A DNA stretch of 64,000 nt from Burkholderiales bacterium JOSHI_001 (GTDB lineage: Bacteria; Pseudomonadota; Gammaproteobacteria; Burkholderiales; Burkholderiaceae_C): assembly GCA_000244995.1 (NCBI GenBank), contig CM001438.1, positions 3,806,090-3,870,089 of the forward strand. The letters are read 5' to 3'. Of this stretch, positions 2,743 to 24,057 are shown one piece after another. A program made the translations under genes and the position numbers. Each line of letters starts with the position of its first letter. The stretch's first letter is position 1. The notes beneath the pieces were generated by a model, which ran no database searches, was not told where the DNA came from, and saw only the letters and a list, made by a program, of their open reading frames with translations.

Positions 2743-5586
2743 TTGACCCTTCCGCTCGTTCTTGCCGGGCCCATCCTGCGGCGGGTCGAGCCCAAGCTCG
2801 TGGCGGTGTGGGTGGCGCTCAGCCGCCCGGCCAGCGTCACCATCACCTTGTGGCAGGGCCGGGTGAAGGGCGGCGCGGGCGAGTTCTTCCGCAGCAACCC
2901 GGCCACGCCCACGCTGCGCATTGCCGACAAGCTGCATGTGGCGGTGGCCCTGGCGCGCATGGCGCCCGAATCGAACAAGCAACTGGTGCCCGGCACCGTC
3001 TACAGCTACGACCTCACGCTGGTGGAAGGCGCCAACACGCACACGCTGGGTTCGCTGGGCCTGCTGAAAAGCACGCCCACCACCAACGGCGGGCCGGCCA
3101 GCCTGGCACGGCCGCACCTGGCGCTGGGTTATGTGGAGGACTTCCTGCCCAGCTTCGCGATGCCGCCCGACCGGCTGGAAGACCTTCGCCTTGTCTATGG
3201 CTCCTGCCGCCGCCCGGTGAACGAGCACCCCGACGCCATGGCCATGATCGACGACCTGATCGCCGACCCCGCCCAGCCGCTGTTCAACGACCCGGTCAAG
3301 CGCCCGCACCACCTGGTGCTGGGCGGCGACCAGATCTACGCCGACGACCTGTGGGCCGGGCAGTTGATGCTGGTGTCGCCGCTGGCGCTGGAACTGGTGG
3401 GCACCTGGCGCCAGAAGCGCACCGCGCCCTTGGCGGACAGCTTCGTGTCGGTCGAGACCCTGCCGGTGGACCGCAAGAACCTCACCGCCACGAATTCGGA
3501 AGACCCGATCAACCACCCCGATGGCTGGGGCCCGGGCGGCCCCACCCCCATTGCCTGCAGCCTGGACCCCTTCCCCGCCGGACGCCGCAAGTCGCAGCTG
3601 ATGCGGGTGGCCCAGATGACCACCACCGACGGCGAAAGCCATGTCTTTTCCTTCGGTGAATTTGCGGCCCTGTACCTCACGGTGTGGAGCAATGCCTGCT
3701 GGCCTCTGCCCGCCCAATGGCCCACGGCGCAGCAGGTCTACGCCCCCGACGACCCGATGGGCCCCACCCCTTCGGCGCCGGAATACGAACGACCGCGGAA
3801 GTGGAATGCCCTCAGCGCGGACGACGTGGGCCCGGTGCCCAGCGACTTCTACGATCCTTGCAAGGGCCTGAAGGACGACGAATTGGATCTCTGCGTGCAG
3901 GCGCGACGCCAATTGCGGCTGGAGCAACGGCACCAGGTCAAGTTTGACCAGATGAAGCGCTTCTACGAAGCCCTGCCCAAGGTGCGCCGCACGCTGGCCA
4001 ACGTGCCCACCCTGATGATCATGGACGACCACGATGTCACCGACGACTGGAACCTGAACCCGATCTGGGTCGACCGCGTCAACAAGACCTCCCTCGGCCG
4101 CGCCATCTTGCGCAATGGCCTGGCCGCCTACACCGTGTTCCAGGACTGGGGCAACGACCCGCTGCGCTACCTGAACGAGGACACCGCGGCCGCGGGGGAT
4201 GCGCGGCGCATGTTGTTGCAGATCACCGCGATGTTCCCGCCGCGCGCCAGCGCCGAGGCCCAACCCGCCACGGCCGATGTGCCGCCCAAGCCGGTGATGA
4301 ACGCACTGGACACCTTCTATGGCCTGGACAAGGTGTCCAAGGGCCAGCCCGACGGCAGCTTCGAGCTCGCCACGCCCCCGATCAAGTGGCACTGGCGCTA
4401 CCAGGGCCCGAAGTACCTGATGGTGGCGCTGGACAACCGCACGCGCCGCAGCTTCGTGTCCCGCGAAGGGCCCCCGGGCAACGTGGCCATCGGCGCGCAG
4501 AAGGACATGATTCCCGATGCGCTGCCGGCCGGCCTGGACGTGCTGATCGTGGTGGCACCGCTGCAGGTGCTGGGCGCGGGCGTGCTGGACGAACTGATCG
4601 CCCCCGCGTCCTACCGGGTGTTCGACGCCAAGAGCTACAGCCATCTCAACCCCACCCCGACCGCGGCCGAGAAACTGTCCGAACGCCAGTTGCCCGGCAC
4701 CCGCCGCATGGTGGGCACCGACCCCGACGCCATCGAGGCCTGGTCCTTCGACCCGGCGGCGCTGGAAGCGCTGCTCAAGCGCCTGTCGGCGCACAGGCGG
4801 GTGCTGCTGCTGTCGGGCGACGTGCACTACGCAGCGGCCACCGAGATGAGCTACTGGACCAAGGGCAACCCGGTGCCCGCGCGCATCGTGCAGTTCACCA
4901 GCAGCGGCTTCAAGAACGTGATGCCCTGGTTCATCGGCGCGGTGGACCGGGTGCTGTCCTTCGCCCAGCGCATGGTGCGCGCCAACATCGGCGCGGAACG
5001 CCTGGGCTGGAACAACGCCGACGCCCAGGCCTTCGTCTTCCATCCCGGCCATGGCCTGGCGGACACGCCGCCGGTGCTGCGCCGCAAGCTGCGCACCTCG
5101 CCCATGCTGATGCCCACCTTCGGCTGGCCCGAAGGCACCCGGGTCGATCCGGGCCACCTGCCGGACTGGTCCTGGCGCCTCACGCCGACGCTGGACCGGC
5201 GGCCCGAAGCCCAGCGCCCGCCCCCGTCGCGCCTGCGCACGCTGGACCCGCCCGAACCGCGCCTGCAGGCCATCCTGGTGAACCACAGCGAACCCGGCAA
5301 CGAGGCCATGGCCTACGCCACCGTCGCCACCCGGCACATGGACCAGTTCGACAAGCTGCGCCACGCGCGCCAGTTCCTGTTCCGGGCCAACTTCGCACAG
5401 GTGCGCTTCGAACGCACGACCGAACTGGTGGCGGTGCACGAGGTCTACAGCGCGCTGGCCGACCCCGGCGCCGCGCCCGGCACGCCGCCCCAGGTGCTGC
5501 CGTATCTGGTGCAGCGCGCGTCGCTGGACGGTCGCGCCGACGACCTGCGCCCCGAACTGGCGCCCCTGCAGGCCCCGGCCTTCTAG
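2743..5586 (+). CDS. PhoD-like metallophosphatase, first gene of a five-gene operon
   Basis: About 947 residues. The start chosen is TTG at 2743, because AAAGGA lies 6 bp upstream; an in-frame TTG at 2722 is the alternative. The metallophosphatase motifs of the PhoD superfamily are all visible: LVYGSCRRP near residue 154, LGGDQIYADD near 193, IMDDHDVTDDWN near 427 and LLLSGDVHYA near 691. These supply Asp, His and Asn ligands for a two-metal centre. Classical PhoD is a Tat-exported alkaline phosphatase or phosphodiesterase, but this protein has no signal peptide and is therefore probably cytoplasmic. About 230 residues separate the second and third motifs and about 250 follow the last one, so it is much larger than the usual 500-600 residues. 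The next gene starts 11 bp later. Its substrate is unknown. Confidence 0.85.
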   Translation: MTLPLVLAGPILRRVEPKLVAVWVALSRPASVTITLWQGRVKGGAGEFFRSNPATPTLRIADKLHVAVALARMAPESNKQLVPGTVYSYDLTLVEGANTHTLGSLGLLKSTPTTNGGPASLARPHLALGYVEDFLPSFAMPPDRLEDLRLVYGSCRRPVNEHPDAMAMIDDLIADPAQPLFNDPVKRPHHLVLGGDQIYADDLWAGQLMLVSPLALELVGTWRQKRTAPLADSFVSVETLPVDRKNLTATNSEDPINHPDGWGPGGPTPIACSLDPFPAGRRKSQLMRVAQMTTTDGESHVFSFGEFAALYLTVWSNACWPLPAQWPTAQQVYAPDDPMGPTPSAPEYERPRKWNALSADDVGPVPSDFYDPCKGLKDDELDLCVQARRQLRLEQRHQVKFDQMKRFYEALPKVRRTLANVPTLMIMDDHDVTDDWNLNPIWVDRVNKTSLGRAILRNGLAAYTVFQDWGNDPLRYLNEDTAAAGDARRMLLQITAMFPPRASAEAQPATADVPPKPVMNALDTFYGLDKVSKGQPDGSFELATPPIKWHWRYQGPKYLMVALDNRTRRSFVSREGPPGNVAIGAQKDMIPDALPAGLDVLIVVAPLQVLGAGVLDELIAPASYRVFDAKSYSHLNPTPTAAEKLSERQLPGTRRMVGTDPDAIEAWSFDPAALEALLKRLSAHRRVLLLSGDVHYAAATEMSYWTKGNPVPARIVQFTSSGFKNVMPWFIGAVDRVLSFAQRMVRANIGAERLGWNNADAQAFVFHPGHGLADTPPVLRRKLRTSPMLMPTFGWPEGTRVDPGHLPDWSWRLTPTLDRRPEAQRPPPSRLRTLDPPEPRLQAILVNHSEPGNEAMAYATVATRHMDQFDKLRHARQFLFRANFAQVRFERTTELVAVHEVYSALADPGAAPGTPPQVLPYLVQRASLDGRADDLRPELAPLQAPAF

Positions 5587-5597
5587 GCGGCTTGAAC

Positions 5598-8500
5598 ATG
5601 GCCGAACCCACGCCACCGCCCCAGGACGACAAGAAGTCCGCGCTGCAGAAGGTGGCGGGCGTGCTGATCGACTTCGCCGACTGGCTGGGCGCCAAGCTGG
5701 GCGAGGACCGGGCCTTCAAGGCCCTGTGCGACGACCTGGGCCTGGACGTCAAGACCACGCCCGAATTCCCCAAGCTCACCCTGTCTTCCTTGAAGGACTA
5801 TGTCAGCCAGCCCAGCCCGGGGCTGCAGGCCTGGTTCGGCGTGATCGCCGATGTGACGAAGCTGGTGGAGGGCATCCGATCGCTGGTGGACGCCATCGAC
5901 CTGGGCGCCGAGGCCACCGCCGAAGAGGTGTTCCAGAACCTGCTCGACCTGCTGGCCAGCAACTACGTGCGCGACCGCTGGTACCACCTCTATGTGTGGA
6001 TGGAACTGGTGCGCTTCAGCACCGAGCCCATGACCCTGTACGGCCCGCAGGGCACGGCCGGCCAGCGCTTCTACGGCAGCCTGAAGGCCCTGCTGAAGTT
6101 CGCGCTGTCGCCGCTCACCCTGCTGGCCGGCCCGCCGATGAAGACCGAGGCCGACGCCCGCAAGTGGTCCGACGCCACGCTGCTGCCGCTGGCCGAGGTG
6201 TTCGCTTTCATCGGCCACTCCGAACGCGAGATCGGCCTGGACACCGAGCCGCTGGACGACGGCCACTTCAAGATGTTCTACGGCTTCGACCAGCCCGAGG
6301 GCGCGCTGTCGCCGCAGCAGCTGGAGTCTCCGGTGGCCGATGCGGTGTCCCAGCGCATGCTGTCGGTTCAGGTGCGTGCCTTGCCGCAGTCGTTCCAGGG
6401 CAAGGCCATCACCGTCGAAGGCGCCCTGCGCTTTTCGCTCGCCTGGGTGCCGGAAGACCATGGCGGCAAAGGCCTGTTCATTTCGGTGGGGGGCAGCCAG
6501 TTCCGCTTCGGCATCCGGCCCGGCCAGGACTGGGCGGGCGATGTCAGCGCCACCTTCGACGCGCCCTTCGCCGTGCAGATGGGCGGGCGGGACAAGGCCC
6601 TGCGTTTTGCCAGCCCCAACGCCGACCCGCACCTGAATGTGGGCTTCGCGCTCAGCTCCAAGCCCATGCCGGCGGGTGAACGCCGCCGCGTGCTGGGGCT
6701 GGGCGGCGACAACGGTTTTGACGTCGGCCGCTTCGTGCTGTCGGGCCAGCTCACCCAGGACGACGCGCGGGTGCAGCTCACCTTCCACGACTGCCGCCTG
6801 GCGCTGGACGGCAGTTCCTTCGACAACTTCATCGGCTCGATGCTGCCCACGAAGCAGACCAGCCTGGAGTTCAGCTTCGGCGTGGGCGCCTCGTCGCGCG
6901 ACGGATTCTTCACCACCGGCGACCTGCCCGGCGTGGGCGCGCAAGGCACACCGGCCCCCCGTGCTGGCCCGCCCGCCGGGAACGACTTCCCGAACGTGCC
7001 GGTGGTGGCCACCGGACTGCAGGGCAAGGGCATCCCGCTGGAAATTCCCATCGGCAAGAGCCTGGGCCCGGTGCGGCTGCTGAAGCTGCTGCTGAACCTG
7101 GACCGCGACAGCGGCGCGGCGCCGAAGGCGCTGGTGCAGGCCGCGCTGTCCTTCAGCACCCAGATCGGCCCGGTCACCGCCACCGTGGACCGCGTGGGCA
7201 TGAAGCTGGGCCTGGACTTCCCCGCCGACCGCGCCCTGGCCAACCTGCATGTCGCCAACCTGGATGTCGGCTTCATCGCGCCGCGCGGCATCGGCCTGAT
7301 GGTGGACGCCAAGAGCGTCAAGGGCGGCGGCTTCCTGTTCCACGACGAGGCGCGCCACCAGTACGCCGGCGTGATGGAACTCAGCCTGTCGGGCGTGGTG
7401 GCCCTGAAGGCGGTGGGCCTGCTGGCCACCCGGCTGCCCGACGGCAGCAAGGGTTATTCGCTGCTGATCCTGGTCACCGCGCAAAGCGCCCAGCCGGGCG
7501 GGTCGCTGCTGCAACTGCCGCTGGGCTGGCGCCTGACCGGCCTGGGCGGGCTGATCGGCATCCACCGCACCGTGGACGAGGACGCCGTGCGCGCCGGCCT
7601 GGCCAACCACACCCTGGCCTCGGTGCTGTTCCCCAAGGACCCTGTGGCCAATGCGCCCACCGTGCTGGCCGCCATCGACCGCGTGTTCCCGGCCCGGCGC
7701 GGCAGCTACCTGTTCGGCCTGATGGTGCAGCTGCAGTGGGGCGTGCCCACCATCGTCGAGGTGAACCTGGGCCTCATCCTGGAGCTGGGCGGGCGCCACC
7801 GCTTCGTGGTGCTGGGCCGCATCACCGCGGTGCTGCCGCGCCTGGACAACGACCTGCTGCGCCTGAACCTGGACGCGGTGGGCATTTTCGACTTCGACCA
7901 GGGCACCGCCGCCATCGACGCCCTGCTGGTCGATTCACGCCTGCTGCGCCGCTTCCCGCTCACCGGCAGCGGTGCCTTGCGCGCACGCTGGAGTTCGCCG
8001 CGCAGCTTCGCGCTGGCCGTGGGCGGCCTGCACCATGGCTTCAACCCGCCGGCGGGCTTTCCGGCGCTGCAGCGCCTGGCGGTGAGCCTGACCACCGGCG
8101 ACAACCCGAAGCTGAACTGCGACGCCTATTTCGCCATCACCGCCAACACGGTGCAGTTCGGCGCCCACGCCCACCTGTACGCCGCCGCGGCGGGCTTCAG
8201 CGTCACCGGCGACATCGGCTTTGACGTGCTGATCCAGCCGCTGACCTTCCACTTCCTGGCCGAGTTCTATGCCGGCATGCAGTTGAAGCGCGGCAACACC
8301 AACCTGTTCAAGGTGAAGGTCGAAGGCGCGCTGGAAGGGCCGCTGCCCCTGTCGGTGCGTGCCAAGTGCAGCTTCGAGATCCTGTGGTGGGACGTCACCA
8401 TCCGCGTGAACTTCACCCTGGTCGGCGGCCAGCGCCCGCCACTGCCGGCGGCGGTGGACGCGCTGGCGCAGTTGCGTGCCGCGCTGGGCGACAGCCGCAG

Positions 8501-9218
8501 CTGGGCCACCGAGCTGCCCCCGGGGCAGACCCGCATCGTGGCGCTGCGCGAAGCGCCCGCCGACGGCATGCTGCGCGTGCACCCGCTGGGCACGCTGACG
8601 GTGCGCCAGAGCGTGGTGCCGCTGAACTTGTCGCGCGACATCGACAAGTTCAACGATTCACCCGTCGCCGGGGCGCGCCGCTTCGCGCTCACGCGGGTGG
8701 CCGTGGGCACGGGCCCCGGCAGCGAAGCCGCCCTGCCCCTGCAGGACGACTTCGCGCCGGCACAGTTCTTCCAGATGAGCGACGACGACAAACTGGCCAG
8801 CCCCTCGTTTGAACCCATGCAGGCCGGCCTGCGCATCGGCGCGTCGGACTTCGCCTTCGCGTTGAACCAGGGGGTGGCCTCGCCGCTGGACATCGAAACC
8901 CGCATCGTGGACCGCCAGGCCGCCACGCCCCCGGCGCCGCCGCCGCGCTATGTGCTCAGCCTGGACCGGCTGCAGCTGCATGCGCTGCAGGGCGCGGCCG
9001 GGCGCAGCCCGTTGCGCCAAGACGAACGCCGCGGGCGGCCGGCGGCCTTCGCCGCGCTGGCGTCGGCGCGCTTTGCGGCCGTCAGCGAAGACCTGGCGCC
9101 GGCCGCGGGCGGCAGCCGCGCCACCAGTTTTGCCGAGGCCCTGGCCAACACCAACCGCCGGCGCGGTGGCCAGGTGGTCAACAGCTTTGAACTTGCGGCC
9201 ACGGTGAACCCGACATGA
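5598..9218 (+). CDS. Giant DUF6603-like protein of unknown function
   Basis: About 1206 residues, starting at MAEPTPPPQDDKKSALQKV. An upstream in-frame extension from 4386 is a shadow of the phosphatase gene. I recognise a DUF6603-like region at roughly residues 670-945 from memory of that family: a FPKDPVANAP block, then alternating hydrophobic and polar strands rich in Leu-Gly and Phe-Gly, ending near WWDVTIRVNFTLVG. The composition suggests a long beta-sheet protein. The N-terminal 120 residues are helical and charged. There is no signal peptide or clear membrane segment. The last 150 residues are Ala/Arg-rich. The stop overlaps the next start by 4 bp (ATGA), which suggests translational coupling. 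DUF6603 has no assigned biochemical role, and I could not confirm the match by search. Confidence 0.7.
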   Translation: MAEPTPPPQDDKKSALQKVAGVLIDFADWLGAKLGEDRAFKALCDDLGLDVKTTPEFPKLTLSSLKDYVSQPSPGLQAWFGVIADVTKLVEGIRSLVDAIDLGAEATAEEVFQNLLDLLASNYVRDRWYHLYVWMELVRFSTEPMTLYGPQGTAGQRFYGSLKALLKFALSPLTLLAGPPMKTEADARKWSDATLLPLAEVFAFIGHSEREIGLDTEPLDDGHFKMFYGFDQPEGALSPQQLESPVADAVSQRMLSVQVRALPQSFQGKAITVEGALRFSLAWVPEDHGGKGLFISVGGSQFRFGIRPGQDWAGDVSATFDAPFAVQMGGRDKALRFASPNADPHLNVGFALSSKPMPAGERRRVLGLGGDNGFDVGRFVLSGQLTQDDARVQLTFHDCRLALDGSSFDNFIGSMLPTKQTSLEFSFGVGASSRDGFFTTGDLPGVGAQGTPAPRAGPPAGNDFPNVPVVATGLQGKGIPLEIPIGKSLGPVRLLKLLLNLDRDSGAAPKALVQAALSFSTQIGPVTATVDRVGMKLGLDFPADRALANLHVANLDVGFIAPRGIGLMVDAKSVKGGGFLFHDEARHQYAGVMELSLSGVVALKAVGLLATRLPDGSKGYSLLILVTAQSAQPGGSLLQLPLGWRLTGLGGLIGIHRTVDEDAVRAGLANHTLASVLFPKDPVANAPTVLAAIDRVFPARRGSYLFGLMVQLQWGVPTIVEVNLGLILELGGRHRFVVLGRITAVLPRLDNDLLRLNLDAVGIFDFDQGTAAIDALLVDSRLLRRFPLTGSGALRARWSSPRSFALAVGGLHHGFNPPAGFPALQRLAVSLTTGDNPKLNCDAYFAITANTVQFGAHAHLYAAAAGFSVTGDIGFDVLIQPLTFHFLAEFYAGMQLKRGNTNLFKVKVEGALEGPLPLSVRAKCSFEILWWDVTIRVNFTLVGGQRPPLPAAVDALAQLRAALGDSRSWATELPPGQTRIVALREAPADGMLRVHPLGTLTVRQSVVPLNLSRDIDKFNDSPVAGARRFALTRVAVGTGPGSEAALPLQDDFAPAQFFQMSDDDKLASPSFEPMQAGLRIGASDFAFALNQGVASPLDIETRIVDRQAATPPAPPPRYVLSLDRLQLHALQGAAGRSPLRQDERRGRPAAFAALASARFAAVSEDLAPAAGGSRATSFAEALANTNRRRGGQVVNSFELAATVNPT

Positions 9219-12200
9219 GCGACGCCAGCGTCCTGTTCCTGCCCTGGGTGCGCCAAGGCCTGGCCGCGCGTGTCACCAACCCCGACCCGCTGAAGACGCC
9301 CCTGCCCGCGCCGGCGCCGCTGGGCGTGACCCTGGGCGTGAACGGGGTCGATGCAGCCCCTGTGAATGTGCGCCTGTTCGGCCCCGCGGACGTGATCGGC
9401 ATCGACCCGCGCCAGGTGGTGCGCACCGAGCCGCCCGCGGGCACCAACGACTACGAAGCCAATGACCTGGCGGCCATCGAATTCGACAACCCGGACCTGC
9501 CCTGGCTGTTCACCCCGGCGGGCGCCGACGCCCAAGGGCGCCTGCGGCCCTGGCTGGTGCTGGTGGTGGTGCGCCAGCAGGACGGCGTGCGCCTGCGCCC
9601 GCCGCGCACCGAGCCGCTGCCCGTGCTGGAGATCGGCGCGCCGGCGCTGCCCGCCGACGAACTGCCCGACCTGAACGAAGCCTGGGCCTGGGCCCACGCC
9701 CAGGTGGCCTGGCAACAGGGCGCCAGCGCCGACGAGCTGAAGCAGGTGCTGGCCACGCGGCCGGAACTGTCGGTGGCTCGGCTGCTGTCGCCGCGGCTGC
9801 TGCAGCCCAACACCGCCTACATCGCCTGCGTGGTGCCCGCCTTCGAAGCCGGCCGGCTGGTCGGCCTGGGGGGTGCGCCGGATGCGAACGCGCCGCTCGC
9901 ACCGGCCTGGAAGCTGAGTGGCGCCAACCCACCGGGCACCGTGTCGCTGCCGGTGTACTACCACTGGGAATTCCGCACCGGCGCGCGCGAGGACTTCGAA
10001 TCCATCGTGGCGCGCCTGCAGCCGCGCGACCTGTCGGCCGGGGTGGGCCGCCGCGCCATGGACATCAACGCGCCCGGCTTTGCCCTGCCCGCGGGGCCGG
10101 CGGGATCGCCCGCGCCGGCCCCCCTGCCGCCGGTGCTGCTGGAAGGCGCCTTGCAGCCGCTGGGCGCCGCGCGCGCACCCTTCCCCGACGGCGCCACCCA
10201 GGCCTGGCAGGCCCAGTTGAAGTCCATCCTGAACGCGGCAGGCGCCGACGCGCAGGCGCCGGGTGCCGAACCCGTGCTGGGCCCGCCGATCTACGGCCGC
10301 GTGCACGCGGCGCGCCACCTGGTGGGCCAGGGGCCCGCGCCCCAATGGCTGGACGATGTGAACCTGGACCCGCGCGAACGCGTGGCGGCCGCACTGGGCA
10401 CCGGCGTGGTCCAGTCGCAGCAGGAAGCCCTGATGGCCGAGGCCTGGGACCAGGCTGGCGAACTGGCCCAGGTGAACCAGCGCTTGCGCCAGATGCAGCT
10501 CAGCCTGGCCATCACCGGCCGGCTGCACGCGCGCCATGTGCAGCGCCTGGAGGACGACAACGCGCTGTGGCGTTTCGCCTCGCCGGCACAGGCGCGGCTG
10601 GTGATGTCCCGCCCGGCCCAGGGCGCGGCGCTCACGATGCAGGGCCTGCTGGCCGCGTCGTCCACCCCCACGGTGATCACCTCGGCCCCCATGCGGCGCC
10701 TGGCACGGCCCGGCGGCGCCGTCAGCCGCCGCGCGGCCACGGCGATGCGTCTGGCCGGAACCGCCACCATCGCCAGTGCGGCCAGTGCTACCGCGGTCTC
10801 ATCGATGTTCCGCCTGTACAGCGCCCAGCCCGTGGCCATGCTGTTCGTGCTGCCGCCCACCCGGGGCATGGTCAGCTTCGACGCGGTGACCCGGCGCCTG
10901 CCAGCGGCGCAGCAGACCATCACCTTCGCCCAGGGCAACAACGCCACCGTGGCGGGCCTGGCGCCGCGGCCAGGCTTCCAGGTGCTGGGCGAGCCGGTGC
11001 CGCTCATCGGCACCTTCTCGACCACGGTGCTGGCCACGGCCGCCACCCTCAGCGTGGCCGGCACCACGCGCGCCGCCCCCGCGCCGGACGGCGCTGGGGC
11101 CGAGCCTGGTTCACGCGCCGCGCGCCTGCCCATCAGCCCCATCGACCCCATCGATCCGGTCGACCCGGTGGACCTGCCGCCGCGCCCGCCCCGGCCCCCG
11201 CTGCCGCCGCGGGTGGACAGCGCCGACGCGGCGGCCTTCCGCGCTGCGGCGGCGCGGCACCTGGCGGTGGTGAACCCGGCCCAGCCCTGGTTCTTCCCGA
11301 TCACGAAGAAGATGGTGCTGCTGCAGGCCGCCGACGCACGGCCGCAGGTGCGCGCGCTGCTGGACCCCGCGCCGGCCATGGTGGCCCGCATGCAGGCCAC
11401 GGTGCGGCTGGCGCAGGGCGGCGCGCCCGCCGCCGTGGGCCCGGTGGGCTGCACGCCGGTGTTTCGCCAGCCCATGTCCGAAGCGCTGGCGGCGTTGTCC
11501 CAGGACTGGCTGCTGCCGGGCCTGCACACCGTGCCCATCGATTGCGTGGCGCTGCTGCAGCCCAACCAGCGCTTCATCGAAGCCTTCATGTTGGGCCTGA
11601 ACGTCGAGATGGGCCGCGAACTGCTGTGGCGCGATTTCATCGTCGACGACCCGCGCGCCACCTTCTTCCGCCACTTCTGGCGCTCGGTGCAGCCCCGCGC
11701 CGACGGCGACATCGCCGCCATCGCCGACTGGGGCACGCGCCGGCTGGGCAAGAACCCCGCGCCGCTTGCCGCGGCCGGCCAGGTGGTGCTGCTGGTGCGC
11801 AGCGCGCTGTTCCGCCGCTACCCCAACGCCGTGGTCTATGCGGTGCCGGGCGAGCGCGTGGGCATCGGCCGCCGCCCCGGCCCCATCGGGCAGGAACTGC
11901 AGCCGCTGTTCCGGGGCTCTCTGCAGCCCGATGTCAGCTTCTTCGGCTTCGACCTGGACGCCAGCGCGGCCACCGGGAACCCCGGCTGGTACTTCGTCAT
12001 CCAGCAGCAACCCACCGAGCCGCGTTTCGGCTTCGATGTGGACGTGCAGTTCGGCACCGCCACCCATGTGCCGCTGGCCAAGCCGCCGGTAGGCCACACG
12101 CTGCCACCCGGCACGCGCTGGGCCTTCAACGCGGCGCACATGGCCCAGATCACACGCCAGCAGCCGGTTCGCGTGGCCATCCACGCCAGCGAACTCATCC

Positions 12201-12235
12201 CGCCACCGGCGGCCCCATCGCCTGCCCCGCCCTGA
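9215..12235 (+). CDS. Large conserved-looking protein of unknown function
   Basis: About 1006 residues. The ATG overlaps the stop of the DUF6603-like gene (ATGA). I recognise no named domain. Visible features are an N-terminal beta-rich segment with FGPADVIGIDPRQVVRTEP near residue 55, a LPWLFTPAGADAQGRLRPWL block near 93-112, and a WEFRTGAREDFESIVARL block near 250-267. A Pro/Asp linker of repeated Ile-Asp-Pro and Val-Asp-Pro units runs at about residues 639-667 and separates two large halves. Tyr/Trp/Phe-rich strands follow in the C-terminal half. There is no signal peptide. It sits in the middle of the operon, 2 bp before the next gene, so it is presumably made in step with its neighbours. 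Coding potential is strong: a long open frame with consistent GC-rich third positions. Confidence 0.75.
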   Translation: MSDASVLFLPWVRQGLAARVTNPDPLKTPLPAPAPLGVTLGVNGVDAAPVNVRLFGPADVIGIDPRQVVRTEPPAGTNDYEANDLAAIEFDNPDLPWLFTPAGADAQGRLRPWLVLVVVRQQDGVRLRPPRTEPLPVLEIGAPALPADELPDLNEAWAWAHAQVAWQQGASADELKQVLATRPELSVARLLSPRLLQPNTAYIACVVPAFEAGRLVGLGGAPDANAPLAPAWKLSGANPPGTVSLPVYYHWEFRTGAREDFESIVARLQPRDLSAGVGRRAMDINAPGFALPAGPAGSPAPAPLPPVLLEGALQPLGAARAPFPDGATQAWQAQLKSILNAAGADAQAPGAEPVLGPPIYGRVHAARHLVGQGPAPQWLDDVNLDPRERVAAALGTGVVQSQQEALMAEAWDQAGELAQVNQRLRQMQLSLAITGRLHARHVQRLEDDNALWRFASPAQARLVMSRPAQGAALTMQGLLAASSTPTVITSAPMRRLARPGGAVSRRAATAMRLAGTATIASAASATAVSSMFRLYSAQPVAMLFVLPPTRGMVSFDAVTRRLPAAQQTITFAQGNNATVAGLAPRPGFQVLGEPVPLIGTFSTTVLATAATLSVAGTTRAAPAPDGAGAEPGSRAARLPISPIDPIDPVDPVDLPPRPPRPPLPPRVDSADAAAFRAAAARHLAVVNPAQPWFFPITKKMVLLQAADARPQVRALLDPAPAMVARMQATVRLAQGGAPAAVGPVGCTPVFRQPMSEALAALSQDWLLPGLHTVPIDCVALLQPNQRFIEAFMLGLNVEMGRELLWRDFIVDDPRATFFRHFWRSVQPRADGDIAAIADWGTRRLGKNPAPLAAAGQVVLLVRSALFRRYPNAVVYAVPGERVGIGRRPGPIGQELQPLFRGSLQPDVSFFGFDLDASAATGNPGWYFVIQQQPTEPRFGFDVDVQFGTATHVPLAKPPVGHTLPPGTRWAFNAAHMAQITRQQPVRVAIHASELIPPPAAPSPAPP

Positions 12236-12237
12236 CC

Positions 12238-15200
12238 ATGCCCGTCCAACTGCTTTCGCTGCCCAGCGACCTGCTGAGCGTGGCGCTGCCCACGCTGCCG
12301 CCCGAACTGGCGGCCGTGCTGGCGCCGTCGGACGTGCCGCTGCTGCTGCTGCCGGTGCGGGTGGAAACGCGCTTCTTCGCGCTGCCTGACACCGTGGGCA
12401 CGGCGCCGAGCCTGGAACTGCGCATCCGCGTGTACCCCGACCAGGTGCATGTGGACTCGCACGAACCCGCCCTGTCGACCGACGAATTCCTGTGGGGGCA
12501 GCACTTCTGGCAACAGGTCTGGCGTGCCGGGCACGACGAGGCCGCCGAGCGCCTGGCCTGGCAGCAGCTGTGCAGCCGCTTCGACGCCCAGCGCGCAGCC
12601 TGGATCGCCCGCGCGCTGCGGCCGGACAACGTGAACGACTGGCCGTCCGCCCCGGTGCCGGCCGAGCAGCCGCTGCCGGTGCCGCCGCGCCTGGCCGCGG
12701 CGGCGATGCAGGCAGACGCCCAGGCCGGCGGTTGGCAACGCGCGCCATTGGCCAAGGCCATGCCGCAGCGCTGGGTGGCGGTGGCCACCGCGCGCGGGGC
12801 GGTGGTGGGCTGCGTGCCCGGCGCGCCCATCAGCGCCGAACCCGCAGTGGGCCCGAACCCCAAGGACAGCACGGCCGCGCCCGATGACCAGCTGGCGCTG
12901 GACGATGGCATGCGCTGGATGGTGGACTTCGACCGCGCTGCCCTGCAGGGCATGGGCCTGCGCATGAAGCTGCCCGCCGCGGTGGCGCAGCAGGGCATCG
13001 AAACGCTGGTGGTGTTCGGCGTGTCCTCGCTGGCCCCGGACGCGGCCGCCCAGGCCTGGGCCGCGCTGCTGGACGCGCAGCACTACAGCGGCGGCCTGGG
13101 CTTCCTGCGCCTGGGCACCCCCACCAACAACAGCAGCGACGCGGCCTCGGGCTGGTCGTCGCAGGACCCGCTTCACCTGCGCAGCTTCAGCAGCGAATGC
13201 CGCGCGCCCGCCCTGGCGGCCGACAGCAACGCCGCCCTGCTGGGCCGCGCCTTCGGCTTCGACGAGGCCGCCACACAGGCCAGCCTGCGCACGCTGTGGG
13301 ACGCGCCCTTGCGCGAACAGGCCGACGCCCGGCAGATGGCCACCGCGCTGTGGCCGGCCACCTGGGGCTACCACCTGATGAACCTGGTCGGGCTGGACGG
13401 CACCGGCCTGACGCTGGAACACCTGGACTGGGCGCGCCAGCACTTCATCGACCATGTGCGGCCCTTCGGCCCCCTGCCCACGCTGCGCGTGGGACGGCAG
13501 CCCTACGGCGTGCTGCCGGTCACCCCACTTGCCGGCGACGCGGCCAGCGTCCCCGATGCGCGCGAACGCTGGCTGGCCAGCACGCTGAAGACCCTGGCGG
13601 ACCGCCTGTGGTACCCGCACACCGCCGACGTGCCCCGCGTGGGCCGCAGCAGCGACCCCGCCCAGGACCTGGCCGCGGTGCTGGGCAGCGACGCGGTGGC
13701 GGCGTCGTACCGGCTGCGCTTCCTGCTGGGGCCGCGCTACATCGAACACCTGCGCCGCTTCATGGGCGAAGACCTCAGCGCCAGCGGCTGGCTGGCCGCG
13801 CAGGACCAGGTCTCACGCGCCGTGCTCAACGCCCTGGGCTTCGCCTGGCACCCGCGCCTGGAGGACGCGGCCTATGCCGAGTCGGTGATGGCGGTGTCCG
13901 CCCCGCTGGTGCAGGCCGGCCCCCTGGACGAAGCCACGGCCCTGGCGCCGAACTACATCGCCGCCCTGCTGGCCGACCCGCCGCTGCCGGCCACTGAAAG
14001 CACCCTGCCCCCGCCGCTGGCGGCCCCGGCCAGCCTGCTGCACCTGCTGCTGCGCCATGCGCTGCAGCTGGAGTACACGGTCGCCGCAGCGCGCCATGTG
14101 GCCAAGGCACCGGGCGCGCCGCCGCTGGCCAGCCTGCTGCGCGAACGCGAACTGGTGAACCTGAACGCCGCCACCGCGGTGCGCACCTGGCGCATGCTGC
14201 TCACCCAGGCGTCGCCCCAGACCGGCAACCTGCCACCGGCCGCCTTCCTGAAGGCGCAGCAGCAGTTCGACAGCGCCGAGCTGAAGCCCCTGGGCGAATT
14301 GCGCCAGGCCCTGTCCCACCTGCAGACCCTGGCGCCCGCCACGCTGGAACGGCTGCTGAAGGGCACGCTGGACGTGGCCTCGCACCGCATCGACGCCTGG
14401 ATCACCTCGCTGGCCACGCGGCGCCTGGCCGCGCAGCGCGCGCAAAAGCCCCTGGGCCTGCGCCTGGGCGGCTACGGCTGGGTGCTGAACCTGAAACCCG
14501 CTGCGGCGCCCACCCCGGTGAACCCGCCCCATGGCGAAAGCGGCCCCATGTTCACCGCGCCCGGCGACCCCGGCTTCGTCCACGCGCCTTCGGTCATGCA
14601 GGCCCAGACCGCGGCGCTGCTGCGCAATTCGCACCTGAACCATGCGCGCGAAGGCGCGCAGGACCTGTTCGCGGTGGACCTGTCCTCGCGCCGGGTGCGG
14701 CTGGCCATGTCCTTGCTGGAGGGCGTGCGCCAGGGCCAGCCGCTGGGCGCCTTGCTGGGCTACCTGTTCGAACGCAAGCTGCACGAATTCGGCCACGACG
14801 CCGACATCGACGAATTCCGCCGCATCGCGCCGCTGCAGGCGGTGAACGCGCCCAGTGTGCAGCCGGCCGAGGCCATCGCCGCCAACAACGTGGTGGACGG
14901 GCTGGAACTGCCCAAGGCGCTGGACCGCCTGTCCCGGCTGGGCTTTGGTTTCCCCACACCCGACATGCTGGCGCGCCTGAGGCGCTGTGAGCGCGAACTG
15001 GCGCTGCTGAACGACGCCATCGACGCGCTGAGCGACGCCGCGGTGGCCGAATGCGCCTTCCAGGCCGTGCGCGGCAATGTGGTGAAGACCGGCACCACGC
15101 TGCAGGCCCTGGCCAACGGCGAAGCGCCGCCCCCCGAGCTGGAGGTGGTGCGCACCCCGCGCACCGGCACCGCCGCCACGCACCGCGTGGTGGCGCTGTT

Positions 15201-16659
15201 CAACCCGGTGGCGGCCCCTGCGTCGCCGGTGTCGCCGCGCGCCAAGGCCGAACCCACGCTCAACGCCTGGGCCGCCCGCCTGCTGGGCAACTTCAAGCGC
15301 GTGCGCTTCGCGGTCGACCGGCTGGCGGCCGACGGCCGGCTGCTGAAGACGCTGGACCTGCGCCTTTCCGATCTGGCCCTTCAGCCCCTGGACCTGGTGC
15401 ACCTGGCGCCGGCACGCCCCGGCGAGCCGGCGCCCGAGATCGACCAGCGGGCCCTGGCACGCGCCGAGGCCCTGGGCGGGCCGCTGGCACCCGGCGAGGC
15501 CCTGCGCCTGGACCGCCAGCGCAAGCCCGCCTGGCTGGCCAGCGAGATCGGCCTGGACGAGGTGACCGAGCTGGCAGCGCGCGCGCGCCAGTTGTTCGCC
15601 GGCCTGCGCGCGCTGGACGCGCGCGACCTGCGCGGCCTGCAGGGCAGCTTCGACGCCCGCACCGACGCGGCCGAGTTCGACGCCCGCGCCCAGGCCGCCC
15701 GCAAGGCCCTGGCCAGCGCCACCTCGGCGTTGCTGGCCCTGCTGAAGAACCCGGCCACGGCCAAGCCGGCCGCGCTGGGCGCGGCCATCGCGGCGCTCAG
15801 CCGCTTCGGCATGGCCGGCTCGGCGCCGCTGGAGGGCGCGGCGCCCGAGGCCTTGCTGGTGCAGGCCGCGGCGGTGGCCCAGGAAGCGCAGCGGCGGGTG
15901 GCCCGCGCGCCCGCCACGTTGGCGCCGCCCGAGCTGCTGCGGGCGGTGTTCGGCGAGGCCTTCGTGGCCCTGCCCCGCTTCACCCTGGAAGACCCCGGCG
16001 AGCTCACCCGTTCCCTGGCCGCCAGCACCGAACTGCAGGGCGGTGATGCGCTGGCGGTGGTGCCCTGGCTGCTGCAGTTGCAGCGCGTGCGCGAACCACT
16101 GGCGCGCCTGGGGGCCAGCCTGCAGGCCGCAGAAGTGGCGGGCTCAGGGGCCACGCTGCGACTGGCGGTGGCGCAGTTGCCGCAGGTGCCGGGCGACCGC
16201 TGGATCGGCTTGCCGGCCGCATCGGACAAGACGGGCCTGCCGGCGGGCCGGCTGTCGCTGGTGGTGCATGCCGAGCCCACGCTGAAGCTGGCGCAGCCAC
16301 TGGCCGGTGTGCTGGTGGACGAGTGGGTGGAGCTGGTGCCCGCGGCCAGCGAGACCACGGCCATCACCTTCCAGCACGACGCCCCCGACCAGCGCGCGCC
16401 GCAGGCCCTGCTGCTGGCGGTGCCCGCGTCCAGCAGCCAGGCCTGGACCGGCGCCACGCTGCACCGCCTGCTGCTGGACACGCTGGCACAGGCGCAGGTG
16501 CGCGCCATCGACGCCGAGGCGCTGGACACCGCGGTGCTGAACCCGCTGGCGGGCGCCCCGGCGGTGGCCGAACTGGCGCACTTCCTGCCGGCGCTGCATT
16601 TCGCAGTGAACGTGGACGGCGACGCGGTGGCGCCGGACTTCCGGTCCTTGACCTCCTGA
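12238..16659 (+). CDS. Very large protein of unknown function in the PhoD/DUF6603 operon
   Basis: About 1473 residues, starting MPVQLLSLPSDLLSV, 2 bp after the preceding stop. The frame is open far upstream, but that part antisenses or shadows the previous gene. No named domain is recognised. Blocks that look conserved in kind are LLLPVRVETRFF near residue 36, LRVGRQPYGVLPVTPL near 416-431, and SLLEGVRQGQPLGALLGYLF near 826-845. After about residue 850 the protein is mainly Ala/Leu/Arg-rich helix, with possible coiled-coil stretches (for example around 1010-1230). There is no signal peptide or transmembrane segment. Its size and lack of an obvious active site suggest a structural or scaffolding part rather than an enzyme; that is inference. 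Confidence 0.75.
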   Translation: MPVQLLSLPSDLLSVALPTLPPELAAVLAPSDVPLLLLPVRVETRFFALPDTVGTAPSLELRIRVYPDQVHVDSHEPALSTDEFLWGQHFWQQVWRAGHDEAAERLAWQQLCSRFDAQRAAWIARALRPDNVNDWPSAPVPAEQPLPVPPRLAAAAMQADAQAGGWQRAPLAKAMPQRWVAVATARGAVVGCVPGAPISAEPAVGPNPKDSTAAPDDQLALDDGMRWMVDFDRAALQGMGLRMKLPAAVAQQGIETLVVFGVSSLAPDAAAQAWAALLDAQHYSGGLGFLRLGTPTNNSSDAASGWSSQDPLHLRSFSSECRAPALAADSNAALLGRAFGFDEAATQASLRTLWDAPLREQADARQMATALWPATWGYHLMNLVGLDGTGLTLEHLDWARQHFIDHVRPFGPLPTLRVGRQPYGVLPVTPLAGDAASVPDARERWLASTLKTLADRLWYPHTADVPRVGRSSDPAQDLAAVLGSDAVAASYRLRFLLGPRYIEHLRRFMGEDLSASGWLAAQDQVSRAVLNALGFAWHPRLEDAAYAESVMAVSAPLVQAGPLDEATALAPNYIAALLADPPLPATESTLPPPLAAPASLLHLLLRHALQLEYTVAAARHVAKAPGAPPLASLLRERELVNLNAATAVRTWRMLLTQASPQTGNLPPAAFLKAQQQFDSAELKPLGELRQALSHLQTLAPATLERLLKGTLDVASHRIDAWITSLATRRLAAQRAQKPLGLRLGGYGWVLNLKPAAAPTPVNPPHGESGPMFTAPGDPGFVHAPSVMQAQTAALLRNSHLNHAREGAQDLFAVDLSSRRVRLAMSLLEGVRQGQPLGALLGYLFERKLHEFGHDADIDEFRRIAPLQAVNAPSVQPAEAIAANNVVDGLELPKALDRLSRLGFGFPTPDMLARLRRCERELALLNDAIDALSDAAVAECAFQAVRGNVVKTGTTLQALANGEAPPPELEVVRTPRTGTAATHRVVALFNPVAAPASPVSPRAKAEPTLNAWAARLLGNFKRVRFAVDRLAADGRLLKTLDLRLSDLALQPLDLVHLAPARPGEPAPEIDQRALARAEALGGPLAPGEALRLDRQRKPAWLASEIGLDEVTELAARARQLFAGLRALDARDLRGLQGSFDARTDAAEFDARAQAARKALASATSALLALLKNPATAKPAALGAAIAALSRFGMAGSAPLEGAAPEALLVQAAAVAQEAQRRVARAPATLAPPELLRAVFGEAFVALPRFTLEDPGELTRSLAASTELQGGDALAVVPWLLQLQRVREPLARLGASLQAAEVAGSGATLRLAVAQLPQVPGDRWIGLPAASDKTGLPAGRLSLVVHAEPTLKLAQPLAGVLVDEWVELVPAASETTAITFQHDAPDQRAPQALLLAVPASSSQAWTGATLHRLLLDTLAQAQVRAIDAEALDTAVLNPLAGAPAVAELAHFLPALHFAVNVDGDAVAPDFRSLTS

Positions 16660-16698
16660 GGCCCGCGCCGCCCTCCCCACGCCAAGGACACACGCACC

Positions 16699-18444
16699 AT
16701 GGGATCGATCACCAGCTGGGTCCGCCTGGAACCGCGCTGCCGCGACGACGAACTGGGCCAGGCGGTGCAGGCGCGCATCCACGACCCCTTGTGGATGCTG
16801 GCGCGGCAATGGCAGATGGCCGAGTTCCAGGGCGAGGACGCCGGCTCGCCGGTGCGCGCGCGCTGGCGCGGCGACAGCGCCCCGGTGACACGCTACTTCC
16901 CCGGTGCGGCGCCCGCCAACACCCGCGTCAGCGCGGCCCGTTACGACGCCGCCGCCCTGCCCTTGGAGGCCCTGGTGGAGCGCCAGGCCCTGCCGGGCGA
17001 AGGCCAGCAGGGCTCGCTGCGCCTGGCGGTGGACAGCGGCATGCACCTGCTGCGCCTGCTGGACGCCCAGCCCCTGTCGCGCAGCTACCGCGCCGACTTC
17101 CTGAAGCAATTCGCCCTGGCACCGCCCACCGACGCCCAACGCGCGGCCTGCGACGCCGAGACCCTGTCCTACTGGAACCTGATGGCCCATCGCGCGCTAG
17201 ACGCGCGCCGTGCGCTGGCCGCCTTGCGCAACGCCGCGGGCCAGCGCCTGCCCCTGCCCGCGGGCTTGCCCATCGCCGCCGCGGACAAGGCCGAACTGGA
17301 AGCCGTGGTCAACCAGTGGCTGGTCCTGCAGGACGCCCTGTTCACACGCCCCCAGGCCGGTACCGCACCGGCCTGGAACCCCGAACGGCTGGAGTACGCC
17401 TTTTCCATCGCCGCGGCGCCGGCCGGCGAAGAGGTGGCGCTGACGGCCGCGCAGTTCGCCCAGGGCCACCTGGACTGGCACAGCGTGGACCACGACCCCG
17501 AAATCAAGCTGGGCGCGGCGGCAGACCAGGCCAGCCGGCCCCTGGTGCGCACCGTCATGCCCGCGCCGGTGAGCTTTCGCGGCGCCCCGGCCCAGCGCTT
17601 CTGGGAGATGGAGGACAGCGCCATCGACTACGGCCTGCTGCCCGCCGGCCCGGGCGACCTGCCGCACCTGATGCTGAGCGAATTCGCCAGCGGCTTTGGC
17701 AACGAGTGGTACGTCATCCCCATCGACCTGGACGTGGGCACGCTCACACGCACCCGCTCGCTGGTGGTCACCGACAACTTCGGCGTGCAGACCCTGGTGC
17801 CGCCGGTCAATGGGGCCGGGCGCGGCGCGGGCGGCTGGTGCATGTTCGAACTGAGCGGCACCGACCGGCCGGGAACCCCGGCGCTGGCGCCGCGTGGCAA
17901 CCTGCTGTTCCTGGCGCCGGCGCTGCTGAAGACCCTGGACAGCCGGCCACTGGAAGAGGTGCTTTTCCTGCGCGACGAAATGGCCAACCTGGCCTGGGCG
18001 GTGGAACATGTGGTGCAGGGCGGTATCGAAAACCGGCTGCAGCCCGGCGCCGTGCCCGACGCACCCCAGGCCGAGCTGGCGCCGCCCAGCGCGGTGCCGC
18101 GCTACCGGTTGGCCAGCGAGGTGCCACCCCACTGGACGCCCCTGCTGCCGCAGCGTGTGGGCACACCGCCGTCGTTGCGCCTGGTGCGCGCGGCGCTGCT
18201 GGCGCCGGACGGGTCCAACCTGCGCCGGCGCGCCCAGGGTGAACTGTTGAACGCCAGCGCCGAGCTGAAGCTGTTCAACGAAGAAGTGCCGCGTGAAGGC
18301 GCCAAGGTGACGCGGCAGTTCGAACGCACCCGCTGGCTGAACGGCAGCACCCTGCTGTGGGTGGGCCTGCGCAAGCAGGTGGGGCGCGGGGAGGGCAGCA
18401 GTGTGCTGCGCTTCGACAACCTGGACGCAGGACCGGACAAGTAG
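16699..18444 (+). CDS. Protein of unknown function closing the PhoD/DUF6603 operon
   Basis: About 581 residues with a good ribosome-binding site (AAGGA, about 10 bp before ATG). Two striking blocks are visible. Residues 24-51 contain HDPLWMLARQWQMAEFQGED followed by AGSP, and residues 325-342 contain LSEFASGFGNEWYVIPID. Their density of Trp, Tyr, Gln and acidic residues is what a binding or assembly surface would show. No known domain is recognised and there is no export signal. It begins 39 bp after the previous stop, so it belongs to the same operon. It is the last member: the thiol dioxygenase that follows after 44 bp has a recognisable, unrelated role. Confidence 0.75.
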   Translation: MGSITSWVRLEPRCRDDELGQAVQARIHDPLWMLARQWQMAEFQGEDAGSPVRARWRGDSAPVTRYFPGAAPANTRVSAARYDAAALPLEALVERQALPGEGQQGSLRLAVDSGMHLLRLLDAQPLSRSYRADFLKQFALAPPTDAQRAACDAETLSYWNLMAHRALDARRALAALRNAAGQRLPLPAGLPIAAADKAELEAVVNQWLVLQDALFTRPQAGTAPAWNPERLEYAFSIAAAPAGEEVALTAAQFAQGHLDWHSVDHDPEIKLGAAADQASRPLVRTVMPAPVSFRGAPAQRFWEMEDSAIDYGLLPAGPGDLPHLMLSEFASGFGNEWYVIPIDLDVGTLTRTRSLVVTDNFGVQTLVPPVNGAGRGAGGWCMFELSGTDRPGTPALAPRGNLLFLAPALLKTLDSRPLEEVLFLRDEMANLAWAVEHVVQGGIENRLQPGAVPDAPQAELAPPSAVPRYRLASEVPPHWTPLLPQRVGTPPSLRLVRAALLAPDGSNLRRRAQGELLNASAELKLFNEEVPREGAKVTRQFERTRWLNGSTLLWVGLRKQVGRGEGSSVLRFDNLDAGPDK

Positions 18445-18487: not shown

Positions 18488-19108
18488 ATGAATGCCCCCG
18501 ACACCCTCCCCTACAACCCCGAACCGCTGCGTGAGTTCGTGGCCGGCCTGGCCGGCTTGCTGGACCAGCACCCGGACGAAAACCGCCTGCTGGGCCCGGC
18601 CTCGGTGCTGCTGCAGCGGCTGGTGGCGCGCGACGACTGGCTGCCGCCGGAACTGGCCGAGCCGCACCCCCAGTTCTACCGACAGTACCTGCTGCACGCC
18701 GATGCGCGGGAGCGCTTCTCGGTGGTGAGTTTCGTCTGGGGCCCGGGCCAGGCCACACCGGTGCACGACCACACCGTGTGGGGCCTGATCGGCATGCTGC
18801 GCGGCCAGGAAGAATCGCAACCCTACCGGCTGGACGAACAGGGCCGCGCCCGGCCCCATGGCGAGCCGGTGCTCCTGCAGCCCGGCCAGGTGGAAGCGGT
18901 GTCGCCGCGCCTGGGCGACATCCACCGCGTGCGCAACCGGCGCGACGACGGCGTGTCCATCAGCATCCATGTGTACGGCGCCAACATCGGCGCCGTGCAG
19001 CGTTCGGTCTTCCCACCCGAAGGCGGGCGCAAGACCTTCGTCTCCGGCTACACCAACCGCTGGCTTCCCAACCTGTGGGACCGCTCCAAGGACTGGACTG
19101 CCCCATGA
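18488..19108 (+). CDS. Thiol dioxygenase (cysteine / 3-mercaptopropionate dioxygenase family)
   Basis: This 206-residue cupin should be a non-heme iron enzyme that adds O2 to a small thiol to give a sulfinate. The iron-binding histidines are visible as His93 and His95 in TPVHDHTVWG and His146 in GDIHRVRN, the arrangement of cysteine dioxygenase family proteins. Substrate choice (cysteine or 3-mercaptopropionate) depends on arginine positions that I cannot align with certainty here. The stop overlaps the start of the rhodanese gene (ATGA), so the two are translationally coupled. This fits a pathway in which the dioxygenase product or a related sulfur compound is passed to sulfur-transfer chemistry. 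Cytoplasmic. Confidence 0.85.
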   Translation: MNAPDTLPYNPEPLREFVAGLAGLLDQHPDENRLLGPASVLLQRLVARDDWLPPELAEPHPQFYRQYLLHADARERFSVVSFVWGPGQATPVHDHTVWGLIGMLRGQEESQPYRLDEQGRARPHGEPVLLQPGQVEAVSPRLGDIHRVRNRRDDGVSISIHVYGANIGAVQRSVFPPEGGRKTFVSGYTNRWLPNLWDRSKDWTAP

Positions 19109-21826: not shown

Positions 21827-21837
21827 AACCCGGGCCC

Positions 21838-23975: not shown

Positions 23976-24057
23976 CGTGTGTTCTCCCGTGCGGCGGCCT
24001 GGCAGAAAAGACCGGGGGTGTGCCGCGGCCCGCGCATTCTCGCCCTCGGGGCCGCGC

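Follow-up and report, generated by a model that had tools for sequence, protein, structure and literature searches.

What do five large genes encode when they lie on one strand, almost abut one another and include a single recognisable enzyme? We addressed this question for genes A to E (Table 1), which lie in a stretch of 64,000 nucleotides from Burkholderiales bacterium JOSHI_001 (contig CM001438.1, positions 3,806,090 to 3,870,089; hereafter the window), whose genome comprises 5.6 Mb in one contig. An earlier note made from the window's letters described five same-strand genes with gaps of 11, -4, 2 and 39 bp (A-B, B-C, C-D and D-E, respectively), and all five reading frames are indeed open, with the sizes and spacings it gave. 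Its statement that only a phosphatase (A) and a DUF6603 region (B) can be recognised also stands. B matches PF20248 (DUF6603) with 435.8 bits (cut-off 27) over profile positions 1-501 of 502. At an E-value of 0.1, Pfam, NCBIfam and PADLOC gave no match to C, D or E; in PHROGs, at the same threshold, gene E alone of these three matched, with an E-value of 0.055. The reported lack of signal peptides agrees with a crude rule that detected none in the 191 A to E family members of at least 300 residues (13 A, 46 B, 45 C, 45 D and 42 E). Here, we show that B, C, D and E form a conserved, co-occurring four-gene block and that the position 5' of B is a swappable slot, and we tentatively propose that the locus encodes a modular complex with an enzyme payload, typically a hydrolase.

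A conserved block of four genes

A genome scan based on E returned 57 loci, which became 51 once neighbouring contig stretches were stitched together, and gene calling with iterative profiles assigned 13 A, 46 B, 49 C, 45 D and 43 E members among their 1022 proteins. Genes in unannotated loci were called with a codon-usage script, not a standard caller, and this script overlooked annotated genes in one locus or more, that of the Rhizobium plasmid among them. Three loci of a second organisation (type 2) were excluded from the adjacency and slot statistics, and all eight type 2 loci are treated apart. In the type 1 loci, adjacent genes always share a strand (B-C, 40/40; C-D, 38/38; D-E, 40/40), with median gaps of 9, 11 and 12 bp and maxima of 162, 108 and 336 bp, respectively; non-adjacent pairs were counted apart (C-D in one locus, D-E in two, and E before B in two). 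The order B-C-D-E on one strand is present in Variovorax, Rubrivivax, Nitrospira, Acidobacteria, Micromonospora, mycobacteria, Pedobacter, Hymenobacter and gammaproteobacteria, on Streptomyces and haloarchaeal plasmids, and on a Gemmatirosa plasmid in which C occupies two reading frames. Departures include split genes (C and D in Rhizobium and Halobellus, C in Hymenobacter and D in Frankia), a D-E fusion, seen in a single genome from the phylum sample around Mycolicibacterium, and a B gene that follows E, with two large genes in between, in Aestuariivita and Rhodophyticola. Of the five families, B to E recur in order across phyla; the phosphatase is optional and often absent. Fifteen comparisons (five genes in three pairs of related cassettes) gave dN/dS values of 0.08-0.25, indicative of purifying selection, and these values, together with the same gene order in two domains of life, indicate that the coding of A to E is not a product of chance.

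The four genes also occur together at the level of whole genomes. Among 148 genomes of the Nitrospira phylum sample, B (as DUF6603) is present in 14 and D in the identical 14, counts that include the sample's centre genome, picked for having the cassette, and one B match that is a contig-edge fragment (3.4e-8). When 42 of the 57 E loci were checked, DUF6603 was present in 41 of the 42 genomes behind them, the exception being Nocardia aobensis, which holds a fragment of E. A further E gene, on a Streptomyces anthocyanicus plasmid (L150:19860-21734), has no B, C or D within 20 kb and lies near IS5 transposase genes. These two cases and the type 2 loci, in which DUF6603 stands with a C-like gene and other partners, are the exceptions seen to the mutual presence of B to E. 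Against the condition under which the earlier note would have its system idea fail, the outcome is mixed: the large genes are found without the phosphatase, but rarely without one another, and the idea holds for these four. Among 32 loci with near-complete B to E, which were also used for a concatenated tree, the distances of C, D and E correlate mutually at 0.64-0.81, and the correlations that involve B are 0.36-0.62; in 500 label shuffles no observed value was attained.

The block is sparsely distributed. Of the 398 genomes in the phylum sample of the window, 9 have DUF6603, its own genome included, as do 9 of 296 genomes in the sample around a Mycolicibacterium, that centre included. D occurs in one of the 398, the window's own, because the other eight DUF6603 matches are type 2. 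The eight type 2 loci encode a B' protein of ~1,500 or 3,250 residues, a C-like gene that is split in two in seven of them, a D' protein of 1,136-1,343 residues and a variable last gene. Profile comparison relates C'1 to residues 54-308 of C (probability 99.1), and the idea that type 2 holds diverged forms of D and E was rejected, as the comparison gave no relation for C'2, D' or the last genes. In most loci of this second system, which was recorded at L105-L108, L111, L116-L126 and L169, a metallo-beta-lactamase-like protein or a protein of 198-256 residues lies ahead of the cassette; the metallo-beta-lactamase match ahead of B' is sub-threshold (21.6 bits, cut-off 22.7), and a relative of that protein precedes B' in another genome.

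Plasmid records carry E in 15 cases and B in 14, with 13 common to both lists. In the C+D+E tree and the E tree, both quick searches with SH-aLRT support only and with warnings on long branches and letter make-up, the window groups with Variovorax and Rhizobacter beside Nitrospira and Acidobacteria, and other betaproteobacteria form a separate clade. This placement and the sparse distribution suggest that the cassette has spread horizontally. A viral origin was rejected: profiles of E, B and D found one (45 residues at a contig end), zero and zero relatives in IMG/VR, respectively, and in a phage collection E matched one of 50,697 records, MT835531.1, an unverified faecal contig deposited as Bacteriophage sp. 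that carries part of B, then C, D and E, and is possibly a bacterial fragment. Apart from that 45-residue piece and this one contig, the phage or housekeeping matches that the earlier note had considered did not appear, C, D and E having no match to a housekeeping family.

Several further observations concern the block itself. A strong central transmembrane-like segment is present only in two Pedobacter sequences and one from Ignavibacteriae (L017, L040 and L036) among 45 C members, and C was on this ground rejected as a membrane-anchored protein. Five Nitrospira-phylum cassettes (G858, G897, G918, G839 and G944) have a 269-residue gene of no known family between C and D, recorded at loci L158-L163, L166, L176 and L177. 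In two alphaproteobacteria (L031:10858-16408 and L049:1514-6492), two large genes separate E from B; the first of them ends with a hydrophobic stretch that, as an impression, recalls pre-toxin domains, and the L031 proteins have no Pfam match.

Interchangeable genes at the position 5' of B

Gene A adjoins B in all 13 of the collected loci in which it was seen, a count made within these loci and not by a genome-wide search for A without B, and the pairs always share a strand, with a median gap of -4 bp. A is related to the PhoD-like phosphatases (PF09423), whose metallophosphatase motifs it retains: GSCR, GDQIYADD, DDHDVTDDW and SGDVH, as metal and substrate motifs of this family, are intact, and GDQIYADD and DDH[DE] are kept in 12 of 13 A members, the window's included. 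It differs from them in its low score (30.5 bits, gathering score 27, over profile positions 71-134 of 343 only), its long extra regions and, by the crude rule, the lack of a signal peptide. The TTG start of A is preceded by AGGAAAGGA, and its N-terminus aligns with homologues from Acidobacteria and haloarchaea.

Other loci carry other genes at this position. Among 40 B genes with a called upstream gene, 23 follow a gene of the same strand at a distance of at most 60 bp (12 PhoD and 11 others), and one further PhoD gene lies 117 bp upstream. Pfam assigns a phospholipase D (PLD) to the slot of the second Nitrospira cassette, a Nal1-type protease to that of Flavobacterium (its Hymenobacter counterpart is 72% identical) and an M23 peptidase, behind a hemopexin gene, to that of Mycolicibacterium; two M23 matches occur among the 80 neighbours scanned (see below), which fits a second mycobacterial locus. 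The Rhizobacter slot protein is beta-lactamase-like at 21.3 bits, just below the cut-off of 22. Nal1-like proteins precede B on the Gemmatirosa and Paraburkholderia plasmids, the latter protein having no match in a PDB search, and the haloarchaeal slot proteins, directly ahead of B, form a family of their own with a hydrophobic stretch (Halalkalicoccus to Natrinema, 1.5e-126; Halobellus to Halalkalicoccus, 2.3e-7). A further 15 loci contain 19 B genes, each of them preceded on its own strand by a gene no more than 60 bp away; five of these preceding genes are PhoD and three PLD-like. The slot also differs within single genomes, as three genomes have two cassettes, or parts of them, with unlike slots (beta-lactamase-like and PhoD in Rhizobacter, PhoD and PLD in Nitrospira LK70, and none and PhoD in a gammaproteobacterium), and the Rhizobacter cassette with the beta-lactamase-like gene is nested within a PhoD clade (SH-aLRT 100, quick tree). 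The proposal that the phosphatase is the centre of the assembly has to be given up, since PhoD is interchangeable with several other genes at this position and many loci lack it.

Four of the cassettes in these further loci have the order slot-B-slot-B-C-(269 aa)-D-E, and each comes from the Nitrospira phylum sample. Their slot pairs are a PLD with a zinc-peptidase-like protein, a 945-residue protein of no assigned family with the same zinc-peptidase-like protein, and, twice, PhoD with a subtilisin-like protein, so that both slots are enzyme-like in three of the four. The labels subtilisin-like and zinc-peptidase-like are based here on motifs and not on a profile match; the motifs DSG, HGTHVA and GTSMA (subtilisin-like), two HxKxxxxD (PLDs) and HEVAHSFG (zinc-peptidase-like), typical of such enzymes, are intact, as are catalytic motifs in most of the slot enzymes examined.

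About 110 C-terminal residues are common to the subtilisin-like and Nal1-like slot proteins. In one-against-one comparisons, blastp aligned this region in 8 of 8 pairs (E-values of 5.7e-10 to 1.8e-6) and phmmer in 6 of 8 (2.5e-10 to 8.1e-8). Among the proteins of the collected loci, a profile of the region has only two further matches at an E-value of 0.05, to a second upstream reading frame of the Gemmatirosa cassette and to one of the Paraburkholderia cassette. Across the 148 genomes it gave seven matches; six are strong (E-value <1e-42) and all lie between two B genes, and the seventh, weak one (8e-4) is in a genome without DUF6603. A tblastn search with one copy against 72,556 plasmid records returned two records, both cassette-bearing. 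The plain reading of these similarities is that the region would serve as a docking or adaptor domain.

Enzymes also occur elsewhere in the cassettes. In Sulfuriferula, a caspase and a C70 peptidase lie past E, and B is preceded, at 160 bp, by a DyP-type peroxidase (2e-44 to a PDB peroxidase); on a Nocardia plasmid, a subtilisin-like protein lies past E. Eighty of 206 candidate neighbours, picked by shared strand and nearness, were scanned. The S. longwoodensis PhoD protein carries a peptidoglycan-binding domain (PG_binding), as does a gene past the Micromonospora cassette, and ahead of the Nocardia cassette there is a match below threshold; an amidase precedes C in Aestuariivita, lamin-tail domains (LTD) are fused to E in two haloarchaea, and C contains FG-GAP repeats in S. 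longwoodensis and, below the cut-off, in Micromonospora. These accessory modules are mostly of an extracellular type, which does not show that the proteins are exported. No recurrent defence family and no sheath, tube, baseplate or AAA gene is present in the best 25 of 109 families among the 80 neighbours.

Table 1. Coordinates of the cassette genes and their domains in the window, and of the haloarchaeal slot proteins in their own loci
Feature	Coordinates	Strand	Size	Basis or remark
Gene A (slot gene), PhoD-like metallophosphatase/phosphodiesterase	2743..5586	+	947 aa	TTG start
Pfam PhoD match in A, residues 406-475	3958..4167	+		Pfam
Gene B, with DUF6603	5598..9218	+	1206 aa	
DUF6603 domain of B, residues 485-1063	7050..8786	+		Pfam, 2.7e-130
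High-confidence part of the B model, residues 560-939	7275..8414	+		Block pLDDT 82-96, long antiparallel strands
Gene C, no known family	9215..12235	+	1006 aa	Middle part variable
Gene D, no known family	12238..16659	+	1473 aa	
Gene E, no known family	16699..18444	+	581 aa	Conserved LARQWQxxEFxGEDAGSPV and DEMANLAW motifs
Haloarchaeal slot proteins	L151:150-2906; L153:1943-4648; L065:1613-2848			

In the window, beginning 43 bp past E (18488-20727, + strand), are a cysteine-dioxygenase-like gene (206 residues; 24.7 bits, cut-off 23) and a gene for a protein with four rhodanese matches, neither of which has a counterpart seen beside other cassettes; genes for a Radical SAM protein with DUF3641, DUF2064, PPK2 and glutamate-cysteine ligase follow at 20852-26334. 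Upstream of A, on the opposite strand (275-2662, - strand), are a TANGO2-like gene and a pyridine-nucleotide disulphide oxidoreductase gene. The oxidoreductase has relatives of 73-76% identity in two family members, and as none of the other genes flanking the window's cassette lies beside these relatives, no empty insertion site was seen.

Predicted structures and comparison with known systems

A model of B (residues 250-1206) was obtained with a mean pLDDT of 72.4 and a pTM of 0.57; its confident region comprises more than 20 long antiparallel strands. In 26 of 37 strands of B the two faces differ by at least 2 Kyte-Doolittle units, a figure that has no control on strands of soluble proteins. 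Foldseek matches of B include the ushers FimD and PapC (best E-value 8.9e-5), apoB100 (1.4e-3), LptD (7.6e-3) and SprA (7.9e-3). B is thus predicted to resemble large outer-membrane barrels and apoB100 in its long meandering sheet, many strands of which would be amphipathic; it differs in its low TM-scores, in the lack of any sequence relation in PDB searches and, from the barrels, in having no signal peptide and in occurring in archaea and Gram-positives that lack such an outer membrane. With VIA, whose Z may reach ~13 for repeats through arrangement alone, B matched Fiu at Z 14.5 (rmsd 13.3, 280 residues), SprA at Z 14.4 (rmsd 5.3 Å, 269 residues) and porins at Z 11-14 with an rmsd of 12-15 Å; compared with most porins and VDAC, strand order is similar at an rmsd of 12-16 Å. 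The high rmsd to porins and the lower one to SprA suggest that the modelled sheet is flatter or wider than that of porins. Haloarchaea and Actinobacteria have no such outer membrane, and for this reason, and because the crude rule found no signal peptide in 46 B members, it is improbable that B serves as a porin in the cell that makes it. Three BFVD matches of B (E-values of 7.0e-6 to 7.4e-5; a putative phage tail fibre and two unnamed) had TM-scores of at most 0.16 and were not used. The E model (pLDDT 73) aligned by VIA at Z of at most 4.8, to FN3 domains over ~64 residues.

Sequence searches against the PDB were of little help. A alone gave no match and B alone six, all with E-values of 0.28 or worse; profiles of E, C and A gave none, and those of B and D matched chiefly coiled-coil, designed and helical proteins, with weak others such as a flavodoxin-like domain. 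PF20248 itself, the full domain of which B carries, is described only as a family of unknown function, its name DUF6603 appears in no open PMC paper searched, and no description of a B-C-D-E system was found in the open PMC literature searched.

Three known kinds of system invite comparison. Contractile injection systems, Tc toxins and other effector machines are possibly alike in concept, with conserved body proteins, swappable cargo and no signal peptides, and by this analogy the locus may work like an effector-carrying system. However, the sheath, tube, baseplate and AAA proteins of contractile injection systems (the extracellular eCIS, the type VI secretion system and tailocins) were not detected in A to E with Pfam, NCBIfam or PHROGs, and TcA, TcB and TcC domains have no Pfam match there; by these domain searches, the locus is therefore neither a contractile injection system nor a Tc (ABC) toxin. 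In NTP-dependent conflict systems, effectors such as trypsin-like and caspase peptidases are exchanged around a conserved core (PMC7159879), an arrangement to which that of this locus is similar, but their core NTPase (MoxR, STAND or FtsH) was not found in the window's A to E. In Pfam and NCBIfam, the window's five proteins have no match to MoxR, vWA, STAND or another NTPase. A pattern scan found Walker A in 1 of 13 A, 3 of 46 B, 0 of 45 C, 4 of 45 D and 2 of 42 E members, mostly at differing positions, and hence no conserved Walker A or P-loop; by this sequence evidence the locus does not belong to these conflict systems. A known defence system was likewise rejected, as PADLOC has no match for the window's five proteins.

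What the locus may encode

In the reading that we tentatively favour, a modular complex with an enzyme payload, B, C, D and E would be the conserved parts and the slot gene 5' of B would supply an interchangeable payload, often a hydrolase acting on phosphodiesters, lipids, peptides or peptidoglycan; in the window this payload would be the PhoD-like phosphatase or phosphodiesterase A. B would take up the payload and, by way of its amphipathic beta sheet, touch a membrane or enter it; the shared body would consist of C, D and E. The association of B to E in one particle, and the contact of B with membranes, are our inference from the conserved block and the model of B. The complex, if it exists, is probably aimed at membranes or envelopes, and cell envelopes or competitors would be its targets. 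In favour of this reading are the tight spacing and co-occurrence of B to E, the swapping of slot genes, with the Rhizobacter cassette nested in a PhoD clade, the paired slot-B units ahead of one C-D-E, the domain common to two kinds of slot protease, the D-E fusion, the two-faced strands in the model of B, and modules with an envelope theme (PG_binding in the A protein of one Streptomyces, M23, amidase, hemopexin, and LTD fused to E).

Several results weigh against this reading. No same-strand gene lies within 60 bp upstream of 17 of the 40 B genes, so a payload is not always encoded at the slot, and among the 11 non-PhoD slot genes two (M. chubuense and Actinoplanes, where B starts near profile position 402-404) probably represent the beginning of B, split off from the rest, and three have no assigned family. 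The PhoD protein of S. longwoodensis lacks the active-site residues and is degenerate. The shared C-terminal domain was not found in the PhoD, PLD or zinc-peptidase-like slot proteins or in B to E; it is therefore not a general docking rule, and a single docking domain for all payloads was rejected. B, moreover, does not appear to be matched to its enzyme: tandem copies are 62-68% identical to one another and 57-58% identical to two compared copies elsewhere that accompany other enzymes, and it seems that B duplicates locally and does not follow its enzyme. The distances of B agree less well with those of E (Spearman 0.36) and D (0.47) than those of C, D and E agree with one another. Foldseek TM-scores of the usher, apoB and SprA matches are 0.04-0.27 with large rmsd, and the resemblance of B is thus one of strand pattern and not of whole fold; for the E model no Foldseek match was better than an E-value of 0.4. 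Finally, neither an export route nor an immunity gene was identified, in a study that included no systematic search for immunity genes.

A more specific form of the payload complex is doubtful. Here, B-C-D-E would be an undescribed bacterial and archaeal delivery machine in which each B carries one hydrolase onto or through a target membrane, some lineages use a dedicated C-terminal docking domain and some Nitrospirota cassettes carry two payloads.

It is unlikely that the locus encodes a cytoplasmic multi-enzyme scaffold or compartment, in which B to E would be a shell or scaffold that houses the slot enzymes as cargo with no delivery to other cells. The lack of signal peptides in A to E by the crude rule, the C-terminal domain common to the cargo proteases and the DyP-type peroxidase near B in Sulfuriferula would suit such a structure, DyP being a known encapsulin cargo. 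Against it, most of the slot enzymes are of kinds that hydrolyse lipids, peptides or phosphodiesters, and extracellular-type modules recur; no shell protein is present among the fold matches listed for the B and E models, which is not decisive.

An intracellular immune or suicide complex, in which C to E would sense an invader and the slot hydrolase kill the cell, is quite improbable. The sparse distribution and plasmid carriage are as such a complex would have them, and the swappable proteases, PLD and metallo-beta-lactamase-like proteins, with a caspase by one cassette, recall the effector sets of the conflict systems described in PMC7159879. However, the same PADLOC and Walker A results, and the lack of a recurrent defence family in the best 25 of 109 families among the 80 neighbours, speak against it.

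Very improbable, lastly, is a complex for the cell's own envelope or lipids, with B as a lipid-binding beta belt and A as a phosphodiesterase trimming lipids or wall polymers: PhoD and PLD do both cleave phosphodiesters, PG-binding and M23 modules are present and B matches apoB100 and LptD besides barrels, all at low TM-scores, but the subtilisin-, Nal1- and zinc-peptidase-like slots and the recurrence in haloarchaea and Actinobacteria, with their different envelopes, would be left unexplained.

Returning to the payload complex, the candidate docking domain, which is linked to the cassette and present on two kinds of protease, renders the payload idea directly testable. Three giant families without known relatives, together with DUF6603, are kept together across bacteria and archaea with rotating hydrolases. 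Should they assemble into one machine, this would be a new class of complexes that carry payloads and have a cargo domain of their own, and DUF6603 would acquire a testable role, its first.

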